This document shows, in pieces, positions 2,206 to 57,928 of a stretch of 64,000 bases of DNA (position 1 is its first letter; each line of letters opens with the position of its first letter). The notes under the pieces are model-generated. The model was not told the origin of the DNA. It was given only the letters and a program-made list of their open reading frames with translations, and made no database searches. Origin of the DNA: Anastatus disparis (lineage: Eukaryota; Arthropoda; Insecta; Hymenoptera; Eupelmidae); contig JAFFSR010000240.1 in assembly GCA_017163975.1 (NCBI GenBank), positions 1 to 64,000 on the forward strand. The letters run 5' to 3'. Both the position numbers and the translations under genes were made by a program.

Positions 2206-3618
2206 ATGATACATGCCAACAGTCTGCAGGGACCAGACGGCGAATTTTGGCAGAACATTGCTGAAATCCTCCGAAGACTTCAGATCGCAGAAAAAGAAAG
2301 AGATTCCATTTTGAAAGAGATTCTTAACAAATTAGACACAGCAAAGGGGTCAATTAAACCTAATTACGTCGAAGAAATTAAGAAGGGTGTGCCTACGGCT
2401 CTAAGTAAGGTAAAAGAACTTAGAGACGAGATAAGAAGAGAAGAAAAGCAAAAGGAAAAACTCGGTGAGTTACTTTTAGGAAAACTAGCAGAAACATCAA
2501 CAGATACCGTCCATCTCAGGAAGAACCGAGTAACAAGTCAAGAAGCGGGCAAAAGAAAGCCCACAAGTCCACCAGTAGGGGACCTGCATCGAAGCAAGAT
2601 TGGCAGGACCTCAACAAGCTCTAATCTTCAAATAAGTTCTTCTAGAGGAAGATCAGTAAGTGCAACATCAGCCTATTTACAAGATGGTAAAGTACTTTCT
2701 TCACCAGCATCATCTAGATTTGCTGATTCAGAAGATAATGCATGGGAAGCTAATCCAAGAGATCGACGCAAGCGCCGACAACTTTTAAAACGAGCCGTCG
2801 AAAATAACGCTAATCTTGGAAACACCACAGTACAGATACCGGTTCAAACAGAACATCTCCAGAAAAGGACGAAGAAAAAGAATAAGAGTAAGAAGAGAAA
2901 ACCAAGACTCCCACAAGATGCCGTAATTATTAAACCGGTTGCAGGTAAATCCTTTGCAGATATCCTTAAAAATATAAATGAGACAACAATGCCTACTGAC
3001 GGACCAAAGATAGCAAAGTACACTAAGACACGAAAGGGAGATCTGCTAATCAAGTTCAAAGGAAAGAGCAACGATATTGCTGTGGCTGCAACTGCTTTGA
3101 CAGAAGCGGTCAAAGATTCGGGAGAACTACAGAACCTACCAGCTATGACAACAGTCAGGGTCTTTGATCTTAATAGTGGTACCACAATAGAACAAGTCCA
3201 GTCGGCCGTGAGGAAGACTATACCGATACTGACCACTGATCCTGTAGTCACACTTTCGCATCCGAACCAAAGAGAAAAAGTGATAGCCTTTGTTGCATTA
3301 CCCGCTGTAAACGCGGTGGCTCTTGCTGAAGCGAGATATCTCACGATCGGCCCTTTTAACTGTCGTGTAAGGGATTACAACCCAGTGAAAAGATGCTACA
3401 AATGCCTTGGATTCGGACACACCTCCTACTCCTGCAAAGGCCCAGATAGAACAAATTACTGCTATAAATGTGCTGAAGAAGGTCACAAGGCAATGGGTTG
3501 CGTAAATGAAGAAAAATGCATTGCCTGCAAGGACGCAGGAAGACCAGCAGAGGAGATAAAGCACCGTCTAAGGCACAGGAAAGTGCTGGACCTATCGAGA
3601 GGCATGGGGGATGCCTAA
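2206..3618 (+). CDS. R1-clade LINE ORF1, gag-like RNA-binding protein
   Basis: The first in-frame ATG is at 2206; the frame is open from 2101, so a start further upstream is possible. The N-terminal third is charged and probably coiled-coil (many E/K/R, for example around 2400-2500). A basic, serine-rich linker follows. The C-terminal part carries retroviral-type zinc knuckles: CYKCLGFGHTSYSC, then CYKCAEEGHKAMGC, then a CIAC...H remnant, the arrangement usual for R1/Jockey-type ORF1. Such proteins coat the element RNA. The frame is uninterrupted for its whole length, unlike ORF2. The stop at 3616-3618 lies 14 bases before the likely ORF2 ATG at 3633, so the ORFs are adjacent or slightly overlapping in different frames. 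Confidence 0.85.
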   Translation: MIHANSLQGPDGEFWQNIAEILRRLQIAEKERDSILKEILNKLDTAKGSIKPNYVEEIKKGVPTALSKVKELRDEIRREEKQKEKLGELLLGKLAETSTDTVHLRKNRVTSQEAGKRKPTSPPVGDLHRSKIGRTSTSSNLQISSSRGRSVSATSAYLQDGKVLSSPASSRFADSEDNAWEANPRDRRKRRQLLKRAVENNANLGNTTVQIPVQTEHLQKRTKKKNKSKKRKPRLPQDAVIIKPVAGKSFADILKNINETTMPTDGPKIAKYTKTRKGDLLIKFKGKSNDIAVAATALTEAVKDSGELQNLPAMTTVRVFDLNSGTTIEQVQSAVRKTIPILTTDPVVTLSHPNQREKVIAFVALPAVNAVALAEARYLTIGPFNCRVRDYNPVKRCYKCLGFGHTSYSCKGPDRTNYCYKCAEEGHKAMGCVNEEKCIACKDAGRPAEEIKHRLRHRKVLDLSRGMGDA

Positions 3619-3632
3619 AATCCGCCCAAAAA

Positions 3633-6600
3633 ATGACTAAGATACTACAAGCGAATAGACGTAGCCCAGAGACTTTTGCACTTTTGCAGGTACTGGCTAA
3701 AGAAAAGAAAGTAGACATTGTCCTTGTAAGTGAAATTGGCCTAGTTAAGATAGCCGGACCGAACTGGATTACTGACAATCTCAAGAAAACAGCGGTCTGG
3801 GTTACAGAACCAGAAAATATAATTATTGACAAAGGAGGTAAGGGAAATGGATTCGCATGGATTAGGATCGGCGACATTACCTACGTTAGTTGCTACTTCC
3901 GACCTATTACTCCAGGTGAATCGGACAGTATAAATGACTATCTTGACGAACTGGAAGATACAATCCAAAATATGCAAGGTAGCATCATTCTCGGAGGAGA
4001 CTTCAACTCCAGAGCCGTTGAATGGGGATCTGGGGAAACTGACTCAAGAGGACGAAAGATTTTAGATATGACATCAAGACTTGGACTCGAGTTACTAAAC
4101 GATGGCACAACGACCTTTAGAAGGACTGGTCAAAGAGAAACAGTACCAGATATCTCTTTTGCCTCTGAAGATATAGTAGGAAAAATAAATGATTGGGCAG
4201 TTCTAGACGAATTTAATCTAAGTGATCATGAATATATAATGTTCTCCATCGGTCACCCACAACAAAGATACCAACAACAGCGGACTCCAAAATGGAATCT
4301 TGCAAAGCTGGACAAACAAAATTTGAACTCACCATCCAGCGAGGAGAAAGAGCCCTAGCAGAACTCCCAACAGAGATGGCGCAAGACGCGGAACAGCTGG
4401 TCGAAACAACCATGGAACTGATTGAGTATGCCTGCGTAACTTCAATGCCAAAGAAAAATGACAAAGAAGAAAGACTCCCAGCCTACTGGTGGAATAAAGA
4501 AATTGCGGATCTAAGAAGGGGAGTGTCAACGCCCTACGAAGAAGAAGAACGCAAAGAGCAAGAAAAAGAAATGACTGGACTGAAACAAATAGACGTAAGA
4601 ATGAAGAACGAACAGCAAGAAAACATCTGAGCGTAGCCATAAAGAAGAGTAAAACATCACACTGGAGATCACTCTGTGCCGAAGTAAATGATGACCCATG
4701 GGGCCTAGGATACAAAATTGTACTAAAGAAGCTTGGAAGTACACCAAACCACCGCCACGCGATGTCAAAGTAATGGAGGAAATAGTTTCAGCACTGTTCC
4801 CAGATCACAAAGAGAAAAATTCAGCAAACCGAAGTTAACATCGAGGAGATACCCCTGTTCACCGAAAAAGAACTGGAAACCGCGGTGGGATCTATGAAAA
4901 ATCATAAGGCACCAGGACCAGATGGCATTCCTTCAGAAGTCCTCAAGCTGGTGGCGGAAATAGCTCCATCAGTGCTACTGCGCATGTACAACACATGTCT
5001 TAAAACTGGGACTTTTCCAAAACAATGGAAAAGGCAAAAATTAGTTCTCATAGACAAAAAAAGGAGATCCAAATAGCGCATCCGGAAATCGGCCTTTATG
5101 CATGTTAGACACTGCAGGAAAGGTGCTGAAGAAGCTTATAAGACCGAGGCTCCAAGCAGCGGTTAAGGCTAGTGGTGACCTATCTGATAAGCAGTTTGGA
5201 TTCCGGAGGGAAAGTCAACAGCAGATGCAGTCTCGGTACTAAGAGAAACGTTTCGAATGGAGCAGAGAAAAAATCAACATACGAAAGAAATCATATTACT
5301 TGCTACCATCGACGTTAAGAACGCTTTTAACTCCGCTGGATGGGAAAATATTATAAACCTTCTGAGATATAAGTTCAAGATTCCCCTCTACTTACTTCGT
5401 ATGGTAGAAAGTTACCTGAATGATAGACAGCTCTTGTATGAAACCAAGGACGGTCTTAGAACTAAAAAAATATCAGCAGGGGTTGCACAAGGGTCAATTC
5501 TCGGACCAGAGCTGTGGAACATATCGTATGACGGAATCCTTAGACTAGAGCTGCCCGACGGATGCTATCTAATAGGCTATGCTGATGATCTAGCTATCGT
5601 CATCGCTGGTAAGAACAAAAGAGGAAATCCAAGAAAAACTCTCCAGTGCTATGAGAATTCTGAGAAGGTGGCTTGACGACCATGGATTAGATCTTGCGGC
5701 GGAAAAGACCGATTTAATATTCTTAACCAAAAAAGAAAAGCGAGCTTTAACAATATTCAAGAAATGCACATAGAGGATCTCGTAGTTGAGTCAAAAGAGT
5801 CTATCAAATATCTAGGATTCACCATAGACTCTAAAATGAACTTTGGAAAACACATCAAGGAAGGAGCAGACAAAGCGTCTGCAGTCACACAATCTCTTAG
5901 TCGACTTATGAGGAACGTCGGCGGTCCAAAAGCTAGTAAGAGAAAACTGCTGATGTCGGTCACCAACTCCATACTCCTGTATGGCGCAGAGATATGGGGA
6001 GAGACAACACAAAAAAAGAAGTCTATCGAAAACGAATAGCCAGAGTGCAGCGAAGGGCTGCGCTAAGAGTTTGCAGTGCATACCGCTCTGTATCAGAGAC
6101 TGCGGTATTAGCCATTGCGGGAACTATCCCAGTTGACCTATTGGCATTAGAACGCAAGGCACAGTACGAAAAAAGATGTAATGCTGAAAAAAATGGTGAA
6201 ATCTATATCAGAGCTAAAATCGCAGAAGAGGAAAGAAATAAAACCATGCAACTGTGGCAGCAAAGGTACGAGGGCAGATCACAGAGGCAGATGGACTACG
6301 CGTCTCTTACCTAGTATAAAGAACTGGACAAAAGGACTCACGGAGAGGTAAACTATTATCTAACCCAACTACTCTCTGGACATGGATACTTTCGGTCCTA
6401 CCTGTTCAAGCAGAAAAAAGGTGGAAAGCCCTTTGTGTCTCGCATGCAGACAAGCAGTGGATAATGCAGAACATACGCTCTTCATATGCAGACAATGGGC
6501 CCAACAACGACAAACACTCAGGAAAGTATCGGAGAATTCAATTCTGAAAATATAGTGGATCTCATGTTAAAAGGGGAAGAAAACTGGAATGCTGTAGCTA

Positions 6601-31240: not shown

Positions 31241-32126
31241 ACAGTTTTTTATAGTTCAATATTTTTGATAATGGTTTCTTTTGTCATTCACATTTGATGT
31301 TTTTTAAATTATGTAAATTTTACAATTTTTAACTGAGAATTATTCATTTGTAAATCTAATTGCTTACTGTTTTTTATTGTGCACAGTATATTTTATAAAA
31401 TAATTATTTACACAAAAATAAAATATTTTATAGCACTTTTTAACATAAATTCACTCTTTTGCCACGATTTCCTGGAGAAAAAATAGTCTATTATTTTACA
31501 GTGAAAAACAAAAGTACTGTGAAAATTTTTTAACTTTTTTACACTGTTCAATAAAGAAAGACTACTTTTAGATGTGCCTAAAACTTAAACAACAAGCAAC
31601 GGCAGTATATTAAACAATAATTTGATATCTGGATTAATTTATAGAGTTTTCATTTATAATTGTAAGGTGCAGATTATTTATATTAACATTTTTCAAATTA
31701 AGGATGTTCAATGGTGTCATGCGGGGAGGTGAAGAGTCAGAGGGGTACCCTATGCTTTAACATAGGAAAGAAGAATCGCTGCCAACTTAAAGTAATGAAA
31801 TATTTTTCAACAAAAAGTTCTTTGAATGGCGCTAAGGAATAAAATATATTACTCAAATTACATTTAAACGTTTTTTTTGATAAACAAAACATTTTAAAAT
31901 GTTTTTTAATTTATTATTAATTAATTTAAGTTCGATAATATGTTGAATGAGATTTGGCAATGCAGCGTTTTTACTTTTGTGTTGGTAATCTCGGATCACT
32001 ATATATAGATATACATAAAGATGTAAAATTATATACTCCGTACAAACGAACTAGATACAGTGTGCGTTTACTTTTGTTGACGATACAGTGAGAATAATAA
32101 CCTATAAAATTTGAGTGAAGTGAAAA

Positions 32127-35100
32127 ATGTCAACTTATAAATGGAAAGGACGTTTTGTGAGCAAAAAAGTTTATGAAGCAATGCTGCGAAGGTCTGAAAA
32201 TGCAAAAAGTTGATTAGAGAAACTAAAATCAGAAGTTGAAAAAACAACCAGCGTTGTAAAAGGTAATAGGATCATCGATATGGAGCATATAATCCATGAA
32301 ATGCATTGCAGTGATTGCTCTGAACCATTGTTACTACAAAATATTGAAAAAGAGACTATTGCGGGTCTTGGTTCTACTTTTTACATACGGTGCCAAAAGT
32401 GTCTCGTCTTGAATTCTGTAAAATCTGGGCCAGAGTACACAAATCCATCTAGTGGGAGGAAGGTTTTCGCTGTAAACACAAAAGCAGTACTAGGTAAAAA
32501 TATTAATATTCTTTCATGCTTACATAACTTTAATTTTTAATTTACAAATCTGAAAAATTAAAATTTAAAATTGAATTCCAGGATCACTTCATACTGGCAA
32601 TGGACAAACTCATTTGAATGAATTTTTTAATATAATAAACGTGCCAGAGTTCAATTCTCAGCTTTTCAAAAAGCACGAAAGGATAATAGGACCTGTAATA
32701 GAATACATTGCCAAAGAAAGCTGCTCAGAAGCCACAGCTATGGAGCGTGTTATGACTGAAGATAGCATAGCTGAATTACAAAAATTGTTGTAAGTCTCAT
32801 CGACTGAACAATTTATTTTTTTTTTCAATGAAGAGTCAATGAACTCATATTAAAATTTTTGTCTCTATTGTTATCTATAATGCAGAATCGTATAAAATTT
32901 ATGCATTAATCATAATCAATTGCACATGTAATTTTTATTATTATTAGTAAAATTTATAATCAGATTTTTTAAATAAATATTTAGATTTTACTATTAATTT
33001 TAGTTATAATTATAGTTCATAAACAATCATGTAATTGGAGACATAATTTTAATAAAATTTAGTACATGTAATTTTTATTATTATTAGTAAAATTTATAAT
33101 CAGATTTTTAAAATAAAATATTTAGATTTTACTATTAATTTTAGTTATAATTATAGTTCATAAACAATCATGTAATTGGAGACATAATTTGAATAAAATT
33201 TATTTTATCTATAATGCAGAATTGTATAAAATTTATGCATTAATCATAATTAATTGTAAATGTAATTTTTATTATTATTAGTAAATATTACAATCAGATT
33301 TTTAAATAAATATTTAGATTTTACTATTAATTTTAGTTATAATTATAGTTCATAAACAATCATGTAATGAGAGATATAATTTTAATAAAATTTCCTTGAG
33401 AAAATCAACATTGAATGATTTAAAAGTTAATTTCAAATATCTCATTTCCTTCCCTTCATAGACCACCTGAAATGCAGAATGGATACCTGATTGTAAATGC
33501 TGATGCTTCAGACTCAAACGATGAAACAATTGTAAGAATTTTCTGTTCTTATGATATGGGATGGAGTCAGCGTGGCAATGGCTATACCTATGATAGCTTA
33601 AATGGCTATTGTGCTCTCATCGGTATGAAGACTGGCAAAGTACTAGATTTTTGTACTCGAAATAGAAAGTGTAAGATTTGTGATTCAGAATTAAAAACTG
33701 GTATACACAAAGAACATGATTGTAGATTAAATTTTACTGGGAGTGCAAAAGCCATGGAGGCTGATGGTGCTGTTGAATTGGTAACACGAAGCCAAATTTT
33801 AAAAGAATCCAATGTACAAGTTGGTATTTTCATTGGGGACAATGATAGCTCTTCTATCTCAGCTTTGAAAGATACCACTAATTATAATATCCTGAAACAA
33901 TCAGATATGAACCACACTACAAAAGGAGTTGGAAATTGTCTCCATGAAATTCATAAGGATACAAAAAAAGATCCAGATAAAGAACTATCCAATGATATGA
34001 TTAAGCACATTCAGCGGTGCTTCACTTTTGCCATCCACCAAAATAAAGGTGACATTGTAGGAATCCAGAGTACCTTAAAAAATATTCCTGATCACTTGTT
34101 CAATAATCACAGTAATTGTGGTGAATGGTGTAGAAGTAATACTGAAAATTACTCAAGTATTAATCTATACAATCATGCTTTGTTCGAAGCATTGCAAAAT
34201 TTGTTCTTTCAACTGTCAGACAATGCTCAAAAATTCACCTTCGCTGCTAGTAGTCAACCAAATGAGAGTCTGAACCACTCCATGTGTTCGAAAGCACCAA
34301 AAGGAATTTCATACAGCACATCAGAGTCTGCTGACTTTAGATTTAGTGCTACCGTAGCTCAAAAAAATACAGGAAAACATTATCTTAATAAATGTATGGA
34401 TGTTTTAGATATACCTGGGGATCGACAGCAATTAGAAAAACATGCTGATAAGTATGATAAAGATCGCTTAAAAATCAAAGAGAAGACTAGTAATCCAGAA
34501 TTTAAGAAAAAAAGATTAGAACTAAAAGCTTATAGAGCCCAGTTAAGGAATAAAAAAGAAAGATCAGAAGATAATACCTACAAAAGCAATATGACTCTAT
34601 TTGATGAAGTACAACCACAACATATACAGATAATAAATATAGATATACCATATAAATATGGAGAACACAATTTGGCTATTATTTTTTTTGATTTGGAAAC
34701 TGGTAGTCTCAAAGCAAATTGTGATATCTTGCAGATTTCTATGAAATGTCATCAATATATATTGAATATATTCATAACACCAACTCAATCAATTCAACCA
34801 TCAGCTGCTAAAGTAAATGGATTTAGCAAACTGCACAAAAAACTTTTTCAGCATGGCAAAGAAGTACAAACAATTTCCAAAGATGCAGCAACTAAAAAGT
34901 ATTAGATTATTTAAAACTTTTTGGGAAAAAAACTATTCTTGTAGCACATAATTGCATTTTTTGATTCTACACGTCTCTTGAATATGATAAAAAAGTCATC
35001 CTTACTCGATGAATATGAAGAGTATGTGTATGGATTTTGTGATACTCTACAAATGTTTAGAAATAAGTTTCCCAAAAGAGAAAATGGATATAAACTGACT

Positions 35101-35499
35101 GTTTTAGCCAATGAACTTTTAAATCTTCCATGTGATGGAGCACACGATGCTCAGTTTGATGTGACTCTTCTAGAAAAGCTTTATGTAGCTCATTTTAGTT
35201 CATCTGAATTAACAGCTGCAACTAAATTAATTCATGATATTACAAGTCAAATGGACAACTAGGATAACATCAGAAAGTTATTGCCTACTTTAGAGCCGAT
35301 GAAAGATATATTGAGTCTTACAATAAGGTCCAGGTTAGCTAGCTACGGAATCACTTATGAAAAGATTATTGATGTATTTAAAACTAAAGGAGTCATGGAA
35401 ACCAAAGCTTTATTACAAAATAAAGTAGATAGAAAATCTACAATACTCAAGACTGAAAAGACTATAAAAAAGATATTAGATTTCATATCTAATAAATAG
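32127..35499 (+). pseudogene. Mutator-like transposase with C-terminal DEDDh 3'-5' exonuclease domain
   Basis: Three exons: 32127-32494 (donor GTAAAAA), about 32582-32791 (acceptor TTCCAG, donor GTAAGT) and 33463-35499 (acceptor TTCATAG). Exon 1 has paired CxxC motifs (MHCSDC, RCQKC). Exon 3 gives CSYDMGWSQRGNG, IGDNDSSSISAL and QPNESLNHSMCSKAPKG, the likely acidic triad of the Mutator-like transposase domain. The C-terminal 250 codons look like a DnaQ/PML-type exonuclease: IIFFDLETGSLKANCDILQI (Exo I), VAHNC next to FD (Exo II) and GAHDAQFDVTLLEKL (Exo III, H and D). Defects: TGA at 32211, frame changes at 34894-34898 and near 34960, TAG near 35260. The first frame change and others in the window fall in A/T runs. 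Without these the protein would exceed 750 residues. Confidence 0.75.
32924..33440. repeat. Intronic tandem duplication, three units of 140-190 bp
   Basis: Units start at ATGTAATTTTTATTATTATT near 32926, 33067 and 33260 and continue through TTAGATTTTACTATTAATTT and CATAAACAATCATGTAAT. They lie in the second intron of the transposase gene and are very similar, so the duplication is fairly recent. Confidence 0.85.
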
Positions 35500-36727
35500 T
35501 CGAGTGATTATAGTCAAGTAATAATAGTCTAGTAATCTAAAAAATTTAATATATTTTTATAAATATATATAAAACATTTTATATTTTGATGTTAAATTAT
35601 TTTTTATACTACGTGTCATTAAAAATCATAATTTATTGTTAAAAATGTTACATTTTTAAACATTCTATTAATATAATAAATACATTAATTAAAAATAAAC
35701 TAATGGCATTTTTTATTTATGTATATTTAATTAAATTACTGTTATTATATGGAATTTCACTAATTAAAAAATTAATTGCATGATATAATATTTAATAATT
35801 TTTATAATTGCATATCAACACTTTCATAAACAAAAACTTTTGGTTATAAAAACGAAAATATTTTAAATATACATATTAGACAATTTAATTTGTCATTTCA
35901 TTAAAAAATTTTTATATATTCTGAATTAGAATACATATTTTAACACGCATTAGTTTCATTGCTAAAGGTGTTTACATTTTAAAGGTGCAATATTTCTAGG
36001 TTAAATTTAAAAGCAGAAAAATATTTTTAAAACTTATGTTACGTATACGCGATGTTGCCAAATCTCTTACGTAGCAGTAGCGGGTTTTCAAAAATTAACT
36101 CTTACTTTCACTTTAACTTTGAAAATCTCTGTCAATTTTCCTGAAAGGTATATACATAATTATATGAAATGAATCCTTAGATAATATACTTTCATAATAT
36201 CTAAATTTTAATTTGATCTGTTAACTTTTTTGACAGAAATTTGTATAAAACGCAATCAGTTCTCAGATCGCCCATAAGAGCCCATGTTATTTTTCGTATT
36301 TTTAACATTGAATTTCTCGAAAAAACATGCGGAATGAAATACTGAAAAAATCGAGGTAATTTAATTTAATATAATTAATCATATTTTACAATTTCAAAGC
36401 ATTCTGTTAACTTTTATGTAACCATTGAACATCCTTAAATAACAATTATAATCACGTAAAATACGAATAAAACGAAAGTTGATACTAGCGTAACATGTGA
36501 AGAGAAGAGGTAGTCATTTCAATACTCTATTATACGCTAACTCGGGAATCTCCCACATCCCCAACTGCTAATACAGTACATAAGTTACCTATCGCTGCTC
36601 TTACGGCCCTATTACATACATGAAACGAAATTTAGATTTTTGTTATTACAGAAGTCAATTTCAACAAACAGTTTCAACAACAGTTTTAATGATATTGATC
36701 AAAATTAATGATTATTGCATGTTTTAA

Positions 36728-39454: not shown

Positions 39455-41284
39455 TTACATATTTACAAAAGTTTGTGTACATTTTTCAGGATGGTACAAT
39501 TCATAAAAACATTGAAAGCATAAACACTCTCTACACCAAGCACATTTCATAAATGCAAGTGAATTACAATCACATCTTTCACTACGTTTTTGAGAGAAGC
39601 ACACTTCATTTACATTCATGAAAATGTCTCTATCGCTAATTAATCCAGAGGAATACCACGCATACTGAATCATTGGATTAAATAATGGAGCAGATAGTTG
39701 ATGGTGAATCACTGAATGAATTTTTACAGCATCATCTCGACTGTTAATTTGTCTTTGCTGCTGCATCAAGTACGTTGAATTTTGTAATTTTTTACAAATA
39801 TTTTAATTTGCCTATGCAAATATGTATCTAATGGCTGACAGTAAGGTGTGCAGCCTGGAGGTATATATTTAATTGTGCATGTTGATTCATTATTTTCATT
39901 CTTGAATTTGTCAAATAAATTGGATTGGGATTGACCACCCCATGAATCCAAAATCAATAGAAAATTATTATTATTTACATAAGGTTGCAGCACATCTTTT
40001 GTGTATTCAGAAAATATAACTTTGGATAATTTTCCAGATTTTGAACATTTTATGGAAACATTTTTATACTTCTCTTCAAGAGTTTCCATTTCCAATTGAA
40101 TGCGTGGACCAAACTTTCCTGTTGTCTCTTGCAAACATAGGAAAACCTTGGGTAACAGCTTTCCTGATGCAGTGATTGAATATTGCGCAGTGTAAGTATG
40201 CGTTACTTTATTCATATCTCCAAGATGCACTTCTACAGACTTTTGTCCAATGTACCCAAGTGTTCTTTGTACATTTGTTCTGTACTCACACCCCATCTGA
40301 TCTGTATTAATCACAAAATTTAAATTGTAGGTGGGTATGAGTACACGGCATTCTTCTTGAAATTTGAAACTTATATTTTTAATTTCATCTAAAGATTTGA
40401 ATTCTGTTGGCTTCACATATCTTGTCACCTTCCTCTGACGTATTCTATGATTTTTTTTAAATGTACTTGCCCAAGATTGTGAAGCCTCAAACGCAAAGGT
40501 TCCATTTCCAAGAAATTGCATTGCTGCTTGCAAACCCCATTCTTGAATGTTCCTCGTGGAGACTGGTTGTTTATTTGAACGGGCATCCTGGAATCTTCTA
40601 AAAGTCCAGTCTTCGATTTCCTTCAATTTATCATATTTTGTGCCACCATTTAATACATCTCTTTTCCATCGATAAACTTCATCCTTTCGAGTTAAAGAAG
40701 GCCCAACAAATTTTGTAATGATTTCAAAGTCCAATTTGGATGTTCTGTGAGAAGATTAACAGCCTTAATTTTTTTGGAAATTGGAATCAAATTGAACTTT
40801 TTTTTTTTATCTGGAGGCTCATAGCCAGTAGAAGATTGACTTGTTGGAAGCGATTCTGTAATAAAAATAGATAATTAAGTATATTAAATTGAAAGAAAAA
40901 GATTTTTAAGGAAATAATTTTACCTGAAGATTCTGAAGTAAACTCTTCGCTATATTGATTGGATGGTTCATCAACTTCCCACTCGACAACTTCAGAAGGC
41001 AAGCACAACTCATCGCATATTACTGGTTGTAAATCAGTAATATACTCTATTAAAATGTTTGCCATTTCTTGGCCAGTTTCTTCTACTTTCATTGAAGAGG
41101 ACACGGATGAAGATACACTGATCATACCCCTTTCTTTTAAAATTTCAATGCACTTATAAACACTAGCAGTTATAAATTGCAGTGATTCATTTTCAGAGCC
41201 ATGAAAATCTTCATCCTCACTAAATTGCAGTGATTTATTTTCAAAGCCATGAAAATCTTCACACTCACTTGAATCACAATCCAT
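39455..41284 (-). pseudogene. DDE transposase, pogo/Tc5-like, of the long-TIR transposon
   Basis: Exon 1 (41284-40926, donor GTAAAAT) is acidic and contains a direct repeat of EDFHG-ENxSLQF. Exon 2 (from about 40859, acceptor TATTACAG) has a basic segment and a helix-turn-helix-like stretch (KAVNLLTEHPNWTLKSL), then the DDE core: FVINTDQMGCEYR (first D), LLILDSWGGQ (second D) and IPPGCTPYCQPLD (third acidic position). The C-terminus carries a cysteine cluster (CDCNSL, CAWCRECLCFQCF, HPEKC). Frame changes near 40711-40714 and 39788-39793 lie in T runs and each is cured by one extra base, so the gene could be intact in the organism. It would cut and join the element's own ends in the nucleus. 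Confidence 0.8.
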
Positions 41285-41995
41285 TTTTAATTTTTTAAAA
41301 GGAAATCAATAAAAATTTATCAATTATTAACTATAAATTTTGAATGATTTTAACAGATAGTATAACAAAAATAGAAATAACAAAAATAGAAATAACAATT
41401 ATAATGAAAATAAAAAATCTAATTGTATAACAAGATTGATCTTGGTTAAATAAATAAAAATAAAAATCTATTTATATAATAAAATTAATCTTGTTTAAAT
41501 GATTAAATAAAGTTTAATAGCTATAAATAATAAATTAAAAATAAGAAAAGATAAAAAATTACAATAAATATATATACAATTTTAACTAAAAAATCTTTCA
41601 AAATTTTAAATAATAAATTAATTAAATTTGATAATTACAAAAAAAATTAGGTTAATAAAAAAAATAATTAATTAATACAAAGAAAAATCAAACAAAATGA
41701 TTAAATTGATAAGTTAAGAAAATTTTGAACTGAAAAGAAATTTAAAAAGGTAAAATAACTATAAATTTAAAATAAATAATGGAAAACTGAAAAATGCTTT
41801 GCAATACTTAAGTGGTCGCTTTGAGGTTTTTCACTGTTGTAAAATTTTAAATATTTAAACAAAATTTTAAATATACTTTAATTTTGAAGTGCTAGATGGC
41901 GCCACAAAATAAAAGTATAGCAAGCAAAAACCAACGAATTGAATAAAATATATGTGCAAATGATATAAAAATATTATTTCTATTGTTTACATGAA
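41285..41995. other. Upstream region of the transposase gene
   Basis: A+T-rich sequence between the first exon and the right terminal repeat; the promoter should be here but no motif stands out. Confidence 0.4.
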
Positions 41996-45748: not shown

Positions 45749-47144
45749 ATGATGGAGAGTTTAACTCCAGTTCATTCACCAATGGAGACCGTTTTAGAAA
45801 ATGAAACTATGTCTCAACCAAGTTTAACAGAACAGACTCAAGATGGGCTTTTAGATGATAGAAGCCTATCACAAATTACTGAAATTCCCACTTTTTACGT
45901 CAAGAATAACGCAAATTCTACTTATTCTTCAGTGACTCAAAATGAGAAAGTTGCATCAAGAGATCAGGGACTGGTAATGATGTGTGTGGGTGACTTAACA
46001 TTAAGTGATTATGTGTGTGCCATCGGGAATATTATAAAACCGGAGAATATCATATACGCGTATAAATCTTCCAAAGGCCGAGTATGCCTATATTTATCCA
46101 ACAAAAGTCTAGTCGAAAGCCTAACCGAACAATTTGAATACTTGGAAATCAAGAATAACAATGTTTACATCAGACCTCTAGTAGCTAACTTTAAACGTGT
46201 AATACTATCTAATGTTCCCCCCTACTGTTTCGAACAAAACACTTGAAGATATATTCGATCAACTTAAAATTAAAAGAAATTCCAACGTTACACACAAGAA
46301 GGCAAAGTATAGACAAGGAAGGCTATAGCCACATCTTAAGTTCTAGAAGGCAAGTCTTCGCTAAATTTGACGATCTATCAAGAATTCTCCTCAATTTTTT
46401 AAAGTTAATAATGACGATATAGATTACTTTATATATACAACAACGGACGCCATGAAATGCTTTATATGCAAATTAGAAGGACATGTTGCCAAAAACTGTC
46501 CAAATAATAGCACGTCAAATCTACAAAATAAAAGTAACAGTATCTTGACTACAGAAGATAATAGCAGAAAACAAGTACAATCGTCCGCAGTTACAACTCA
46601 ATGTCCTTCTATCATTAATTTGCAAAATGAAAATAATTTTAAGAGACCTCTGTCAATAAACAGCAGCGAAGATTTTAATAGTCTCAATGACTCTACCAAA
46701 AGTGAGTTTACAACAAAAATCAAGCCGTCTTCAACCTTTATAGCTAAGAAAACTTACAAATCTAATAGGAAAAAGAGCAAAATAGAAGTGTCTCACGATG
46801 AAGTTATGGAAAAAATCGAAAATGCGTTAAGACCAGGCGAAACTATTTTCAATGACTCAGACAACTCGTTCTCCTTCAATTATAATAACTTTCTAGAATT
46901 TGTTAAAGCCTCACATAAAAACCCAAATGTCGAAGACGAGGCAAAAAAGCTATCAACTAATTTAACTGAAATTTCGGACTGCATCACAAAAATCTATGAA
47001 AAGATCAATGATAAAACAATTGAATCGAAACTTACTAGATTAAGGAAAAAGCTTTACTCAAACAGCGCTTCAACAGAAAACATTAACAAGGACACTGAGA
47101 GTGCAAGCAATCAGGAAAATAGTGATTCTGACAGTGAAGTGTAA
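45749..47144 (+). pseudogene. I-group LINE ORF1, gag-like, single zinc knuckle
   Basis: The frame opens at 45749 with MMESLTPVHSPMETVLENET and continues to 46246, through VMMCVGDLTLSDYVCAIGN, likely the RNA-recognition-like region. After disturbed sequence (46247-46440, including in-frame stops) it resumes with one CCHC knuckle, CFICKLEGHVAKNC, and a serine/asparagine-rich tail ending at 47144. The protein should bind the element RNA. It lies 38 bases ahead of ORF2. Confidence 0.75.
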
Positions 47145-47182
47145 GCCGCATCTTAAATCATCTCTATAAAATATTATTAAAA

Positions 47183-50100
47183 ATGGGTCACGAGGATTTG
47201 AAAATTTTATACTGGAATGCAAGAAGCATCATCAAAAGAAAACAAGAAGAACTCGAACTAGAAGAGAATCTCCGCTCTTCAGATATCTTTATTTGTGTAG
47301 AATCGTGGCTAAACTCTAGTATAGAAACTTTCGAACTCTCGGGTTATAAAACGTTTAGGATAGATAGATCTCATTCAAGCGGAGGTGGTATTCTTATTCT
47401 AATTAAAAACTCTATCCCATACAGGCAAATAAATAATATTTCATCACCAGACCAATCCGTTGAATTAGCTGGTATAGAAATTCAAACTTCACCTACTTTC
47501 AATCTATATGTATGTTATCGTGCTCCAGGTAAGCTCACGCAAGACCAATGGGAGAAAATCTTCTCTAATATAGATCCGCAATCAAATAATCTGTTTGTGG
47601 GCGATTTTAATGCCCACAATTCTTGTTGGAATTGTAATAAAACAGACCAAAATGGTATTTATCTGTACGAATGCATTGACAAACATAAGCTATTTATTCA
47701 TAATATAGATTCTTTATCTTATACTGATAGTACATCAAAATCTAATATTGACCTCATTCTTTCGACTAATAACTTTTCTGACAGAATTAACACACAAATG
47801 CATGAATTTACCTGGGGCTCGGACCACTTTCCGTTTTTTATAAATATCAATACTAAAAAGTAGTTTACAATAAAAAACGTATAAAATAAGATCTAAAAGA
47901 ACGGATTGGTCAATTTTCAACAATAAATTAGAAAGCGAATATCCATACCTACTATCTCATGAATACGACAGCCTTTCAGCAACCGAAAAATATAAACATC
48001 TTGTCAAAATTATAACTGAATCTGTTCTTAAAAGCACTCCAGAAAAAAAAGCGATAAATACCAAAATGTACCGAAACCCCGCTTCATGGTGGGATGAAGA
48101 ATGTAACGTTATTAAAAATTATCGTAAAAAAGCGTTCCAGAAATGGAATCAATCTAAATCTCTTGAAGACCTATTAGAATTTAAAAGAACATCTGCAATT
48201 GCAAAAAATACATTCAAAACTAAAAAGAAAAACTTTTTCATTAACTTCGCTCAAACAATTAACTTACATACTGATAGCTCTTATGTATGGAATAAATGTA
48301 AGATCTTTAAGAATAAATGGGTTGACGTTAGGCCACAGCATAATTCGGAAAATTTGCAGAGGGATAATAAAATCCAAACTCTTGATAAGATCTGTCCTCC
48401 TTGGGTTCCTAATAATCCTGACTACATGCCCATGTGCCAAGCTAACGATTTTTTAGAGGATCCTTTCAGCTTTCTAGAATTCAATGTTGCATTAGAAACT
48501 CGTAACCCTAATTCATCACCGGGAACAGACGGTATTGACTTTATGATCATACAAAAATTACCCCTTAAATACAAATTACTTCTATTAGATACATTCAATG
48601 ATATGTACAAGCAGAGTAGTTTTCCTGAAAGTTGGAATGATTCTTATTTACATCTTATTAGTAAACCTGATGGTAAGTCCTTCCGTCCAATTGCCCTTAC
48701 ATCCGCCTTCTGCAAATTGTTTGAAACAATTATAAAAAATAAGTTTCAATGGTGGATTGAATCTAATAAAATTTTGCCCAGTAATCAAGCTGGCTTTAGA
48801 AAAGGCCACAGCTGCACAGACAATGTCTTTAAGTTAGCTTTAGAAATTAATGATGCTTTCATTAAAAGAAAACATATGTATAGTGTATTCTTAGACGTTA
48901 AAGGAGCCTATGATAACGTTAACCCAGATATTCTTATAGACAAGCTGGCTAATATAGGTTGTCCTTATAAACTGGTTAAATTTATAAAATTTTTAACAAA
49001 CAAAAGATCTGTATTTATTGGAGATATTGATGTTCATAGAGTTACGTATAAAGGAGTTCCTCAGGGGGGAGTCCTCTCTCCTCTTTTATATCTAATTTAT
49101 ACTTTGGATATTGATAAAGATCTTCCCAAAACGGTAAACATGTCCCAATTTGCTGACGATATAGAAGTCCACTCCAAAAATCCAAACACTTTACAGAAAG
49201 CAGTCAATATAATTCAAACAAGGTTAACAAACTTGGGACTGGATCTCTCTGAGAAAAAACAACATTTGTTGACTTTAATAATTTAAGTATTCCCCCTGGG
49301 GAAGCTTCAATCAAATTAAACAATATCATAGTTAACTCAAGCAGTCACGATTCGATTCCTAGGAGTCATATTCGATTATAAGCTCACCTTTGACCAACAC
49401 TTAAACTATGTTCTTAAGCGAAGCCAAAAATCTCTTAACATGATAAAATTTTTACAAGGTACTTGGTGGGGAGCAGATCCTAGCACTCTAATGATCTTTT
49501 ATAAAAGCTACGTTAGGTCCGTAATTGATTACTGCAGTTTTGTTTATTATCCCTCCAGCAAGGCAAAAAAAATAATTTAGAACGCATTCAAAACTCAGCA
49601 ATAAGATCCGCGTTAGGTTATAGAATTACGACTCCCCATATTATTCTATTAGCAGAATCAAAAACTCCTCTTATCCATGAAAGAGTAAAATTCCTTTGTT
49701 ATACATACTTAACAAAAGTTCTTAGTAATAAAAGTCTTCCTATTAGTAATACCGTCACCAAGTTCCAAAAAAATATTAAAAATTCAATAAATTTAAGCGC
49801 AAAAAACTATTCGTAGAATGTATAGAATTTGTTATAAAATTTGCTCCGAGCTTACACTCTGATGACATGTTTGACCTATACTCTTGTAAATATGAAACCA
49901 GTATGGCATCAATTCCGATAAATATTGATTTAGGAAAAAGTCTCAAAAATTGCAATGAAAAAAATGATGTCTTTAAAAATATGGAAAATGAAAATGTCAA
50001 TTTAATATTTACTGACGCCAGTAAAATAGAAAACTCACACTCGGTGGGTACTGCCTGCGTGATACCAAAATTAATCTTATTATATCGAAAAGTTTAGACT

Positions 50101-50879
50101 CAATGTGCTCAATTTACACGGCTGAATGTTCCGCTATCAATGACGCTCTGGGCTATGCCCTCCAAAATTTAAACACACGAAATAAAATCTTTTCAGATTC
50201 ATATAGTGCTACTCAGAGCCTAAATAACTCTTCACTTAGCATTAAAACTAATCCTTTCATTCTTAAAGCTAAAGAAAAATTCCTTAAGTTTAACAAATAC
50301 AAAAGTGACACAGGTTCAGTCGAGATATACTGGATACCTTCTCATAGTGGGATAATAGGCAACGACCTTGCAGATTTATATGCGAAGGAAGCGTGCAAGT
50401 CGGAAATCTTGGATTCAACCGTGGTTCCATTCTCTGATCTGCGCGCAATATTTAAAGAGAATATGGATATCAATACTAGAAACTATATAAATGAAAACAA
50501 GGATAAAAAAGGGGTTAAATATTTTGAAAATTATTATTACACAAACTCAAAACCATGGTTCTACAACAAGAATATTCCTCGCGAACTTATTGTCACTATT
50601 AATCGTCTGAGAGCGGACCATTATAGCCTAAATGCCTCTCTATCTAGAGTAAATATTATTGATAATCCTGAATGCCCCTGTTCAAATACAAGCCAGGACA
50701 TAAATCATATCGTATGGCAGTGCCCACTGTACGAAGAGCATAGGAACACATTCTTAAAAAAAATTCTGAGAATCGGTTTTCAACTTCCTCTAAAAGTAGA
50801 ATTGTTACTTTCAGAACCGAACTTAAGTGCATTAGAAACTATCCTATCGTTTTTTAAAAAATGTAATTTGCGCATATAA
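47183..50879 (+). pseudogene. I-group LINE ORF2: endonuclease, reverse transcriptase, RNase H
   Basis: Endonuclease: LKILYWNARSIIKRK, CVESWL, NNLFVGDFNAHNSCW, SDHFPFFI (47183-47863). Reverse transcriptase (48066 to about 49300): NSSPGTDGID, SFRPIALTSAFCKLFE, SVFLDVKGAYDNVN, GVPQGGVLSPLLY and the catalytic FADD at about 49150. RNase H (about 50005-50420): FTDAS (D), TAECSAI (E), IFSDS (D) and WIPSHSGIIGNDLADLYAKE (H, N, D). The C-terminus has a CPC...H...C knuckle near 50670-50730. Frame changes near 47885, 49256, 49568, 49803 and 50070 are each cured by one extra base in an A run; one near 49355 is not. Premature stops are otherwise rare, so this copy may be young. Confidence 0.9.
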
Positions 50880-56692: not shown

Positions 56693-57928
56693 CATACATA
56701 CATTTTATTACCAAACCCGACGGATCGGGTCTCAGACCAATAGCGATGACCTCGTGCCTTTCCAAGATATATAAACTTATGGTCAAAAACAGACTGCAAT
56801 GGTTCTGTGAAACATAATTCAATTTGTCCTAGCTCAAACTCTGGATTTAGAAAAGGACGTTCTTGTAACGACAACCTCACAAACTTAACACTATATATAG
56901 AAGATGGGCTGCTCAAAGGTAAAGGCACACTAGCCGCCTTTCTCGACATACAAGGAGCTTTCGACAATGTGGATCCTGAAATTCTTACCTCCAGACTTGC
57001 AGAAATCGGGTGCTCACTCTCAGTGATCAAATTTGTACAACACCTGACCCAACAACGCTCTATTTATACTGAATTCAACCAGAATAATCCACGCTTCACA
57101 AATAAAGGTATACCACAAGGAGGAGTTTTGAGCCCTCTACTTTATTTAATCTATGTTGCTGATATTACAGAAGGCTTATCCAAATTTATACGACTTTCTC
57201 AATTCGCCGATGACATAGCTCTTTACACAAACATACTTCCGCTAAATAAGACTAAAAGTTTACTTACCAAGGGTGTAGAAAACATCAGGACCAACTTGTT
57301 TAAACTGGGCCTTTCTCTAAATCTTAAGAAAACAAAACTGATTTATTTCAACAGTAAAAAAATAACTCCAGGCAGCATCTCAATCACTAGAAATGGGCAA
57401 AAATAAAATCTACAGATTCAACAAGATTTCTTGGTATTATATTTGATTATGAAATGTCTTTCAAACAGCAAATCAGAATCCTTTCCATCAAGTGCCAAAA
57501 AGCCCATAGAATATTAAAATACGTTTGTGGGACATGGGGGGGTCACACCCGAGACCCTACTTAGACTCTATCAAAGCATCATGCGCCCATCATTGATTAT
57601 GGGATTCACACTTATTTTCCTAAAACAAAAGCTCTAGTCAACTCTTTAGAAAGGTTGCAATACGCACCTCTCAGCGAACTGCTATGGGATATCGTTTATC
57701 TACTCCCAAAAATGTTATATTAGCAGAAATCAAATTCACTACCATCAAGGATAAAGCTATGTACTTGGGATGCAATCATCTAGCTAAAGCCCTTTCCAAT
57801 GAAGATAATTCAGCGCACAAAACGATCAAAAATTTCTTCAAACTCCACAAAAATAGTAAACTTAAGAGAAAAAGACTAATAACCGAGTGCGTAAACAGGA
57901 TAGTCCAATACACTAACAATAGTATATT

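Follow-up and report, generated by a model that had tools for sequence, protein, structure and literature searches.

A decayed transposon, very probably of the KolobokD lineage, with a DEDDh exonuclease behind its DDE transposase in Anastatus disparis

A 64,000-nt stretch of Anastatus disparis contig JAFFSR010000240.1 (the window, with all coordinates counted from its first letter) contains a transposon (31702-36434) in which the motifs of a transposase are followed by those of a 3'-5' exonuclease. This raises the questions of what class of element it is, whether the nuclease belongs to it, and what such a nuclease might do there. An earlier note had described a transposon that would define a candidate autonomous family, its single spliced gene joining a Mutator-like transposase to the exonuclease. 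We find instead that the element, now decayed, very probably belongs to KolobokD, one of the lineages of Kolobok DNA transposons, a confidence that covers the identity of the element alone and excludes the role of its nuclease.

Boundaries, gene structure, and decay of the window copy

The 14-bp perfect terminal repeats with TTAA on both sides that the earlier note reported are present (31698-31715 and 36421-36438; Table 1). The termini read GG...CC, i.e., 5'-RR/YY-3', and the two flanks are identical in the TTAA and differ in the adjoining bases. Searches of the window with the 14-mer, allowing up to two mismatches, recovered the two element ends alone; shuffled sequences gave an expectation of 0.27 matches and reached two hits in 4 of 100 shuffles, a control that ignores the fact that both real hits are perfect and inverted.

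Table 1. Coordinates of the features of the element within the window
Feature	Position	Strand	Basis or content
Left TTAA target-site copy	31698..31701	none	sequence
Left terminal inverted repeat GGATGTTCAATGGT, 5'-RR end	31702..31715	+	14 bp, perfect
Exon 1	32127..32493	+	ATG 32127; CxxC pairs; PF20700 positions 9-79; TGA 32211-32213 inside
Intron 1	32494..32581	+	AG|GT ... AG|G borders from sequence
Exon 2	32582..32789	+	PF20700 positions 79-138
Intron 2	32790..33461	+	AT-rich tandem repeats of ~106-141 nt at 32871-33403
Exon 3	33462..35499	+	transposase remainder, linker, exonuclease, C-terminal helical domain
DDE core	33553..34266	+	alignment columns invariant or nearly so; coordinates calculated
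First D (YDMGW)	33553-33555	+	DDE core
CCHC finger	33670-33723	+	downstream of first D
Second D (GDNDSS)	33838-33840	+	DDE core
DxxH	33904-33915	+	DDE core
H/C finger	34108-34131	+	between DxxH and E
E (NESLN)	34264-34266	+	DDE core
DEDDh exonuclease domain	34675..35215	+	Exo I-III residues
Exo I D/E	34690-34698	+	DEDDh domain
Exo II D	34963-34965	+	DEDDh domain
Exo III H and D	H 35143-35145, D 35158-35160	+	DEDDh domain
C-terminal helical (SAM-like/PML_C-like) domain	35263..35499	+	profile matches below cut-off; relatives
Right terminal inverted repeat, YY-3' end	36421..36434	-	14 bp, perfect
Right TTAA target-site copy	36435..36438	none	sequence

The profile search proposed in the earlier note matched the three exon pieces, whose GT/AG borders were read from the sequence, to one Pfam model (PF20700) in consecutive order (positions 9-79, 79-138, and 141-357). 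The junction predicted between exons 2 and 3 is also used in the gene model that the database gives for the relative P0060, and intron 2 differs in length between the window copy and another copy (L010, see below). The spliced gene thus stands as to its three exons, borders, and motif blocks, but in this copy no single open frame contains all of these blocks. A TGA breaks exon 1 (32211-32213), the exonuclease frame is broken near 34893 and again near 34957, and a late TAG (35260-35262) lies in exon 3. FFDLETGS shares the transposase frame, the AHNC block lies in a different frame between the two frame breaks, and GAHDAQFD, past three stops, returns to the first frame. The window copy is dead and encodes no single protein; the earlier note overlooked these four lesions and the PML_C-like tail, and autonomy is not supported for this copy.

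Class assignment

Relatives were collected by a protein search that found 183, of which 120 were listed; those listed under an organism name are insects, nearly all of them Hymenoptera. We aligned the 68 listed proteins with at least 580 aa, leaving out 52 shorter ones, a filter that skews the sample toward fused proteins. Within this alignment, D137, D159, H162, and E281 of the transposase are kept in all 68 rows, and the first D is found in all 58 rows that have a letter there, the other 10 being gapped. The finger between DxxH and E is equally constant (H222, H227, and C230 in 68/68; C234 in 67/67 letters), and the CCHC finger is nearly so (C81, C84, and C98 each in 67/68; H96 in 63/68). 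The five DEDDh residues are all present in 61 of the 68; the seven exceptions are substituted (P0020 and P0085), gapped (P0024, P0070, P0093, and P0112), or both (P0099). The transposase set is complete in 58 rows, and both sets are complete in 51.

KolobokD was described in 2022 (Mob DNA, PMC9587614) as a TTAA-targeting element combining a Kolobok transposase, with a CCHC finger, and a DEDDh exonuclease, and is known from arthropods, molluscs, and cnidarians; that paper gives a CCHC finger downstream of the first D, with another finger between C/DxxH and E, as traits of Kolobok lineages. Every KolobokD feature that could be tested was found here, namely, TTAA, RR/YY ends, DDE with DxxH, two fingers, and the DEDDh exonuclease. 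We therefore assign the element to Kolobok on the first four of these traits and to KolobokD on its DEDDh nuclease. As far as the available portion of that paper extends, the window element shows no difference in kind from KolobokD, so the combination of transposase and exonuclease is already known and the family is not a new one. The related KolobokE, KolobokP, and KolobokH likewise join a Kolobok transposase to an accessory nuclease or helicase, but theirs is a PD-D/ExK nuclease, a His-Me nuclease, or a RecQ helicase (PMC9587614).

PF20700 is named Mutator-like transposase in Pfam, and the title of the earlier note likewise points to Mutator. That the element is itself a Mutator (MuDR/MULE) transposon is nevertheless very improbable. 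MULE target duplications measure ~9 to 11 bp; here, the flanks agree in the TTAA and the next bases differ, and TTAA lies on both sides in 12 of the 16 two-ended loci described below. The GG...CC ends and both zinc fingers, the CCHC one past the first D and the other between DxxH and E, are moreover those of Kolobok lineages (PMC9587614). The piggyBac elements also target TTAA, yet their termini are other than RR/YY (as contrasted in PMC9587614); they were rejected on the GG...CC ends and on the match of the gene to PF20700. The exon 3 piece had no match among phages, and in a search of viral_contigs, two stretches fit a pattern, neither of which was confirmed.

Copies in the genome and selection on the fused gene

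The genome-wide search for the same ends that the earlier note had called for was carried out in the assembly (939 Mb, 399 contigs). The left 501 bases of the element recovered at least 44 matches (40 scored among 258 first-look candidates) and the right 501 bases at least 40 (40 scored among 365). Among 20 regions fetched from the 44 left-end matches, 2 are full-length (L009 and L010). Of the 18 shorter loci, 16 match a left part (~275 to 435 bases) plus a right part (~130 to 450) and are therefore internally deleted derivatives, the other 2 matching the left part alone. Both ends, with up to two mismatches, are seen in 16 of the 20; TTAA flanks 12 of these on both sides and is missing on one or both sides of the other 4. 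Two loci, L016 and L018, have common flanks (24 bp compared, one left base differing) and appear to represent a single insertion. Ends that are not linked to the gene, which the earlier note would have counted against its reading, do occur, but they are the ordinary product of such internal deletion.

Both full-length copies carry the exonuclease. L009 is 99.5% identical and has an open exon 1; one frame joins its transposase to its exonuclease and ends at the same TAG. It carries damage of its own, with the reading frame broken within exon 2 and the DxxH histidine changed. Its flanks match those of the window element at 99%, over 490 bp to the left and 1113 bp to the right, so this is not an independent copy but the same insertion seen again on a different contig, as a haplotig or a segmental duplicate. 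L010, 97% identical over its longest match, has flanks unlike those of the window and none of the four lesions of the window copy, but a stop interrupts its transposase finger between DxxH and E, and a CCHC cysteine and an Exo I aspartate are changed. Thus, none of the three full-length copies of this subfamily is intact, and, with three of the window lesions missing from L009 and all four from L010, the fusion is older than the decay.

A protein search of the genome with the relative P0002 gave at least 67 matches (64 scored among 824 first-look candidates), of which 37 span both domains (query start at or before 66 and end at or after 591), 16 of these being free of stops. Ends were sought within 1.5-kb flanks in 21 of 30 loci from this search: 4 have paired TTAA|GG ends (L032, L038, L040, and L057), the pair at L056 looks like an AT-rich chance match, and 16 have no paired ends within those flanks, their ends possibly being more distant. 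A control with 420 mismatched locus pairs gave an end pair in 31, 7 of them of GG type; these 7 look like related ends of related copies.

For the codon comparison, the closest 16 of 210 own-genome pairs were used, 9 of them at 60 to 62% protein identity. In these nine, dN is 0.23 to 0.28 for the transposase, 0.25 to 0.36 for the exonuclease, with one value inflated by the frame breaks of the window copy, and 0.31 to 0.62 for the tail, the least constrained part. dS is at least 0.8, mostly above 1, and partly saturated. The pairs are nonindependent, several sharing a subfamily and three joining L030 to copies of the window subfamily. Even so, dN lies well below dS in both domains among diverged copies, the purifying selection that the earlier note had suggested looking for. 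Close pairs within a subfamily differ at few sites and have ratios closer to 1, the pattern that decay following insertion would leave; the tail values of the two L037 pairs are distorted by a broken frame. The whole-genome evidence thus indicates that selection keeps the 3'-5' exonuclease fused to the DDE transposase.

We give almost no credence to the notion that the exonuclease entered afterward as an unrelated insertion or is a chance neighbor outside the transposon gene: its motifs do occupy different frames in the window copy, but the fusion is found in the full-length copies (L009 in one open frame), in the 37 genomic matches spanning both domains, and in the 61 relatives with five DEDDh residues within the transposase protein, which refutes a separate origin for the family and upholds the earlier note in assigning the nuclease to the transposon.

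The nuclease and its C-terminal domain

By analogy with its superfamily, the DDE transposase would excise the element at its GG...CC ends and insert it into TTAA, duplicating the target; the ends, TTAA flanks, and DDE motifs are observed in the window, the cut-and-paste step being inferred. The same polypeptide includes a DEDDh exonuclease, 3'-5' in type and akin to Plex9, TREX, and Exuperantia, together with the C-terminal helical domain, and the short same-ended copies would be internally deleted passengers that such a transposase could mobilize in trans. We lean, by a modest degree, toward a nuclease that acts on DNA 3' ends made during transposition, much as the authors of KolobokD proposed that it degrades transposition intermediates from the 3' end (PMC9587614). 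Rather unlikely, though deserving consideration, is that the exonuclease fold is mainly a nucleic acid-binding or host-evasion module (e.g., clearing cytosolic DNA like TREX1) and not one for end processing. The inactive EXO-SAM modules of Exuperantia and PML-1 bind nucleic acid (PMC12934764, as far as consulted), and the tail here resembles theirs; in contrast to them, 61 of the 68 KolobokD rows retain the full catalytic set of five residues, which favors catalysis without pointing to any one substrate. With its many coding KolobokD copies and many deleted derivatives, the genome of A. disparis makes a role of the nuclease in transposition testable.

The less expected part of the element is its tail, which resembles portions of animal PML and Exuperantia. 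In the window copy, it matches PML_C (E = 0.007, 17.0 bits) and DUF6471 (E = 4 × 10−5, 23.8 bits) below the cut-off. At a threshold of 0.001, PML_C is matched in 33 of the 68 aligned relatives (best E = 2.2 × 10−12), P0002 not being among them; DUF6471 is absent from the families that they match at this threshold and is given no meaning. A structure model of P0002 has helices in this domain, and the exonuclease and tail superpose on the EXO-SAM region of Exuperantia with the catalytic residues kept (one superposition, on PDB code 5l80, in which the tail is barely tested). The authors of KolobokD noted a similarity to exuperantia, TREX, and ERI1; PML has no occurrence in the main text of their paper, and the portion of it consulted does not describe the C-terminal helical domain (PMC9587614).

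Among structural homologs of PML-1, the EXO/SAM arrangement is reported for Exuperantia alone, and both are pseudo-nucleases (PMC12934764); Exuperantia gained its SAM-like domain and lost catalysis in arthropods (PMC5597691). The arrangement of an EXO fold followed by a SAM-like helical domain is found in KolobokD relatives, whereas the loss of catalytic residues typical of Exuperantia (PDB codes 5l80 and 5l7z) and the PXL of PML-1 is not, KolobokD retaining these residues along with its transposase. With a PML_C-like tail following its DEDDh domain, KolobokD thus resembles an EXO-SAM protein that has kept its catalytic residues. In the portions of the literature consulted, we found no paper linking KolobokD to EXO-SAM proteins, and a 2023 paper on PML/Plex9 cited in PMC12934764 may say more.

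An EXO-SAM profile search, in which the 7,997 candidates with the most shared words were scored, gave 79 hits, comprising insect EXO-SAM proteins and bacterial-type DnaQ, and neither PML nor Plex9 appears among the names listed. A second search listed 120 fish-type proteins, 176 to 261 aa long, which have neither PML_C nor PF20700 among their precomputed domains; it admits only ~98 to 313 aa and so excludes longer relatives. From 268 proteins, 266 of them with a domain hit, we dropped those with <130 aligned residues or ≥75% identity to a kept row, leaving 146 exonuclease domains (59 KolobokD, 17 EXO-SAM search hits, 39 fish Plex9-like, 30 DnaQ-like, and 1 Exuperantia; no PML) for a FastTree phylogeny rooted on a DnaQ-like row.

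The KolobokD proteins and the EXO-SAM hits form one clade (support, 0.83), and fish Plex9 (e.g., Plex9.1, PDB codes 9mrc/9mrd; similar chains 9l85 and 9l8b) forms a separate one (0.74). The single Exuperantia sequence, on a very long branch (2.5), groups with three DnaQ-like rows and Plex9, and the node joining these to KolobokD has a support of 0.23. Neither Plex9 nor Exuperantia is nested inside KolobokD; the tree argues against KolobokD as the source of a domesticated Plex9, and for Exuperantia, with its very long branch, it is uninformative. Together, the PML_C-like tail and the intact DEDDh domain before it offer a concrete starting point in the search for where Exuperantia and PML-1 obtained their EXO-SAM modules. 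A wider reading, in which the EXO plus SAM-like module, described so far from these two hosts' proteins as inactive, has its catalytically intact version in KolobokD and in which one or both host modules were domesticated from such a transposon, stays improbable, given a tree in which neither Exuperantia nor Plex9 nests within KolobokD.

A deleted derivative and an insertion present on two contigs

Four of the shorter loci carrying the ends of the KolobokD element (L024, L025, L027, and L028) represent one deleted derivative, in which element positions 1 to 275 are joined to 4290 to 4733 (722 bp in L024, L025, and L028; 1,116 bp in L027). When the right 501 bases of the element were searched against its own assembly, 36 of the 40 rows scored, from 365 candidates, covered only query positions 58 to 501, at 91 to 92% identity. 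These right-end rows suggest that a single passenger was amplified in a burst, the four loci above being those read. The window's insertion, along with its flanks (490 bp and 1,113 bp, 99%), is also present on a second contig of the A. disparis assembly (the entry covers C238 and C275), so a haplotig or segmental duplication exists in that part of the assembly.

Repeats and other mobile elements in the window

The repeat stretch of intron 2 differs in length in the full-length copy L010 (246 gapped alignment columns). The two minus-strand ORFs look like those of a second DNA transposon; the one of 329 aa, which was scanned for domains, matches DDE_1 (2.3e-8) and, under the cut-off, HTH_Tnp_Tc5 (6e-4). 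Non-LTR retrotransposon fragments lie in three places, the middle one spanning 46371 to 50879. A long simple repeat occupies 1541 to 2038, its minus-strand translation being poly-isoleucine.

Repeats and mobile-element features by window position
Feature	Position	Strand	Basis or remark
Non-LTR endonuclease	3510-4358	+	domain match
AT-rich tandem repeats, unit ~106-141 nt	32871-33403		within intron 2
ORFs, apparently of another DNA transposon	39766-41305	-	domain scan of 329-aa ORF
Non-LTR zinc knuckle	46371-47144	+	score slightly under cut-off
Non-LTR endonuclease	47138-47863	+	domain match
Non-LTR reverse transcriptase	47874-49286	+	domain match
Non-LTR RNase H	50025-50879	+	domain match
Non-LTR reverse transcriptase	56750-57406	+	domain match
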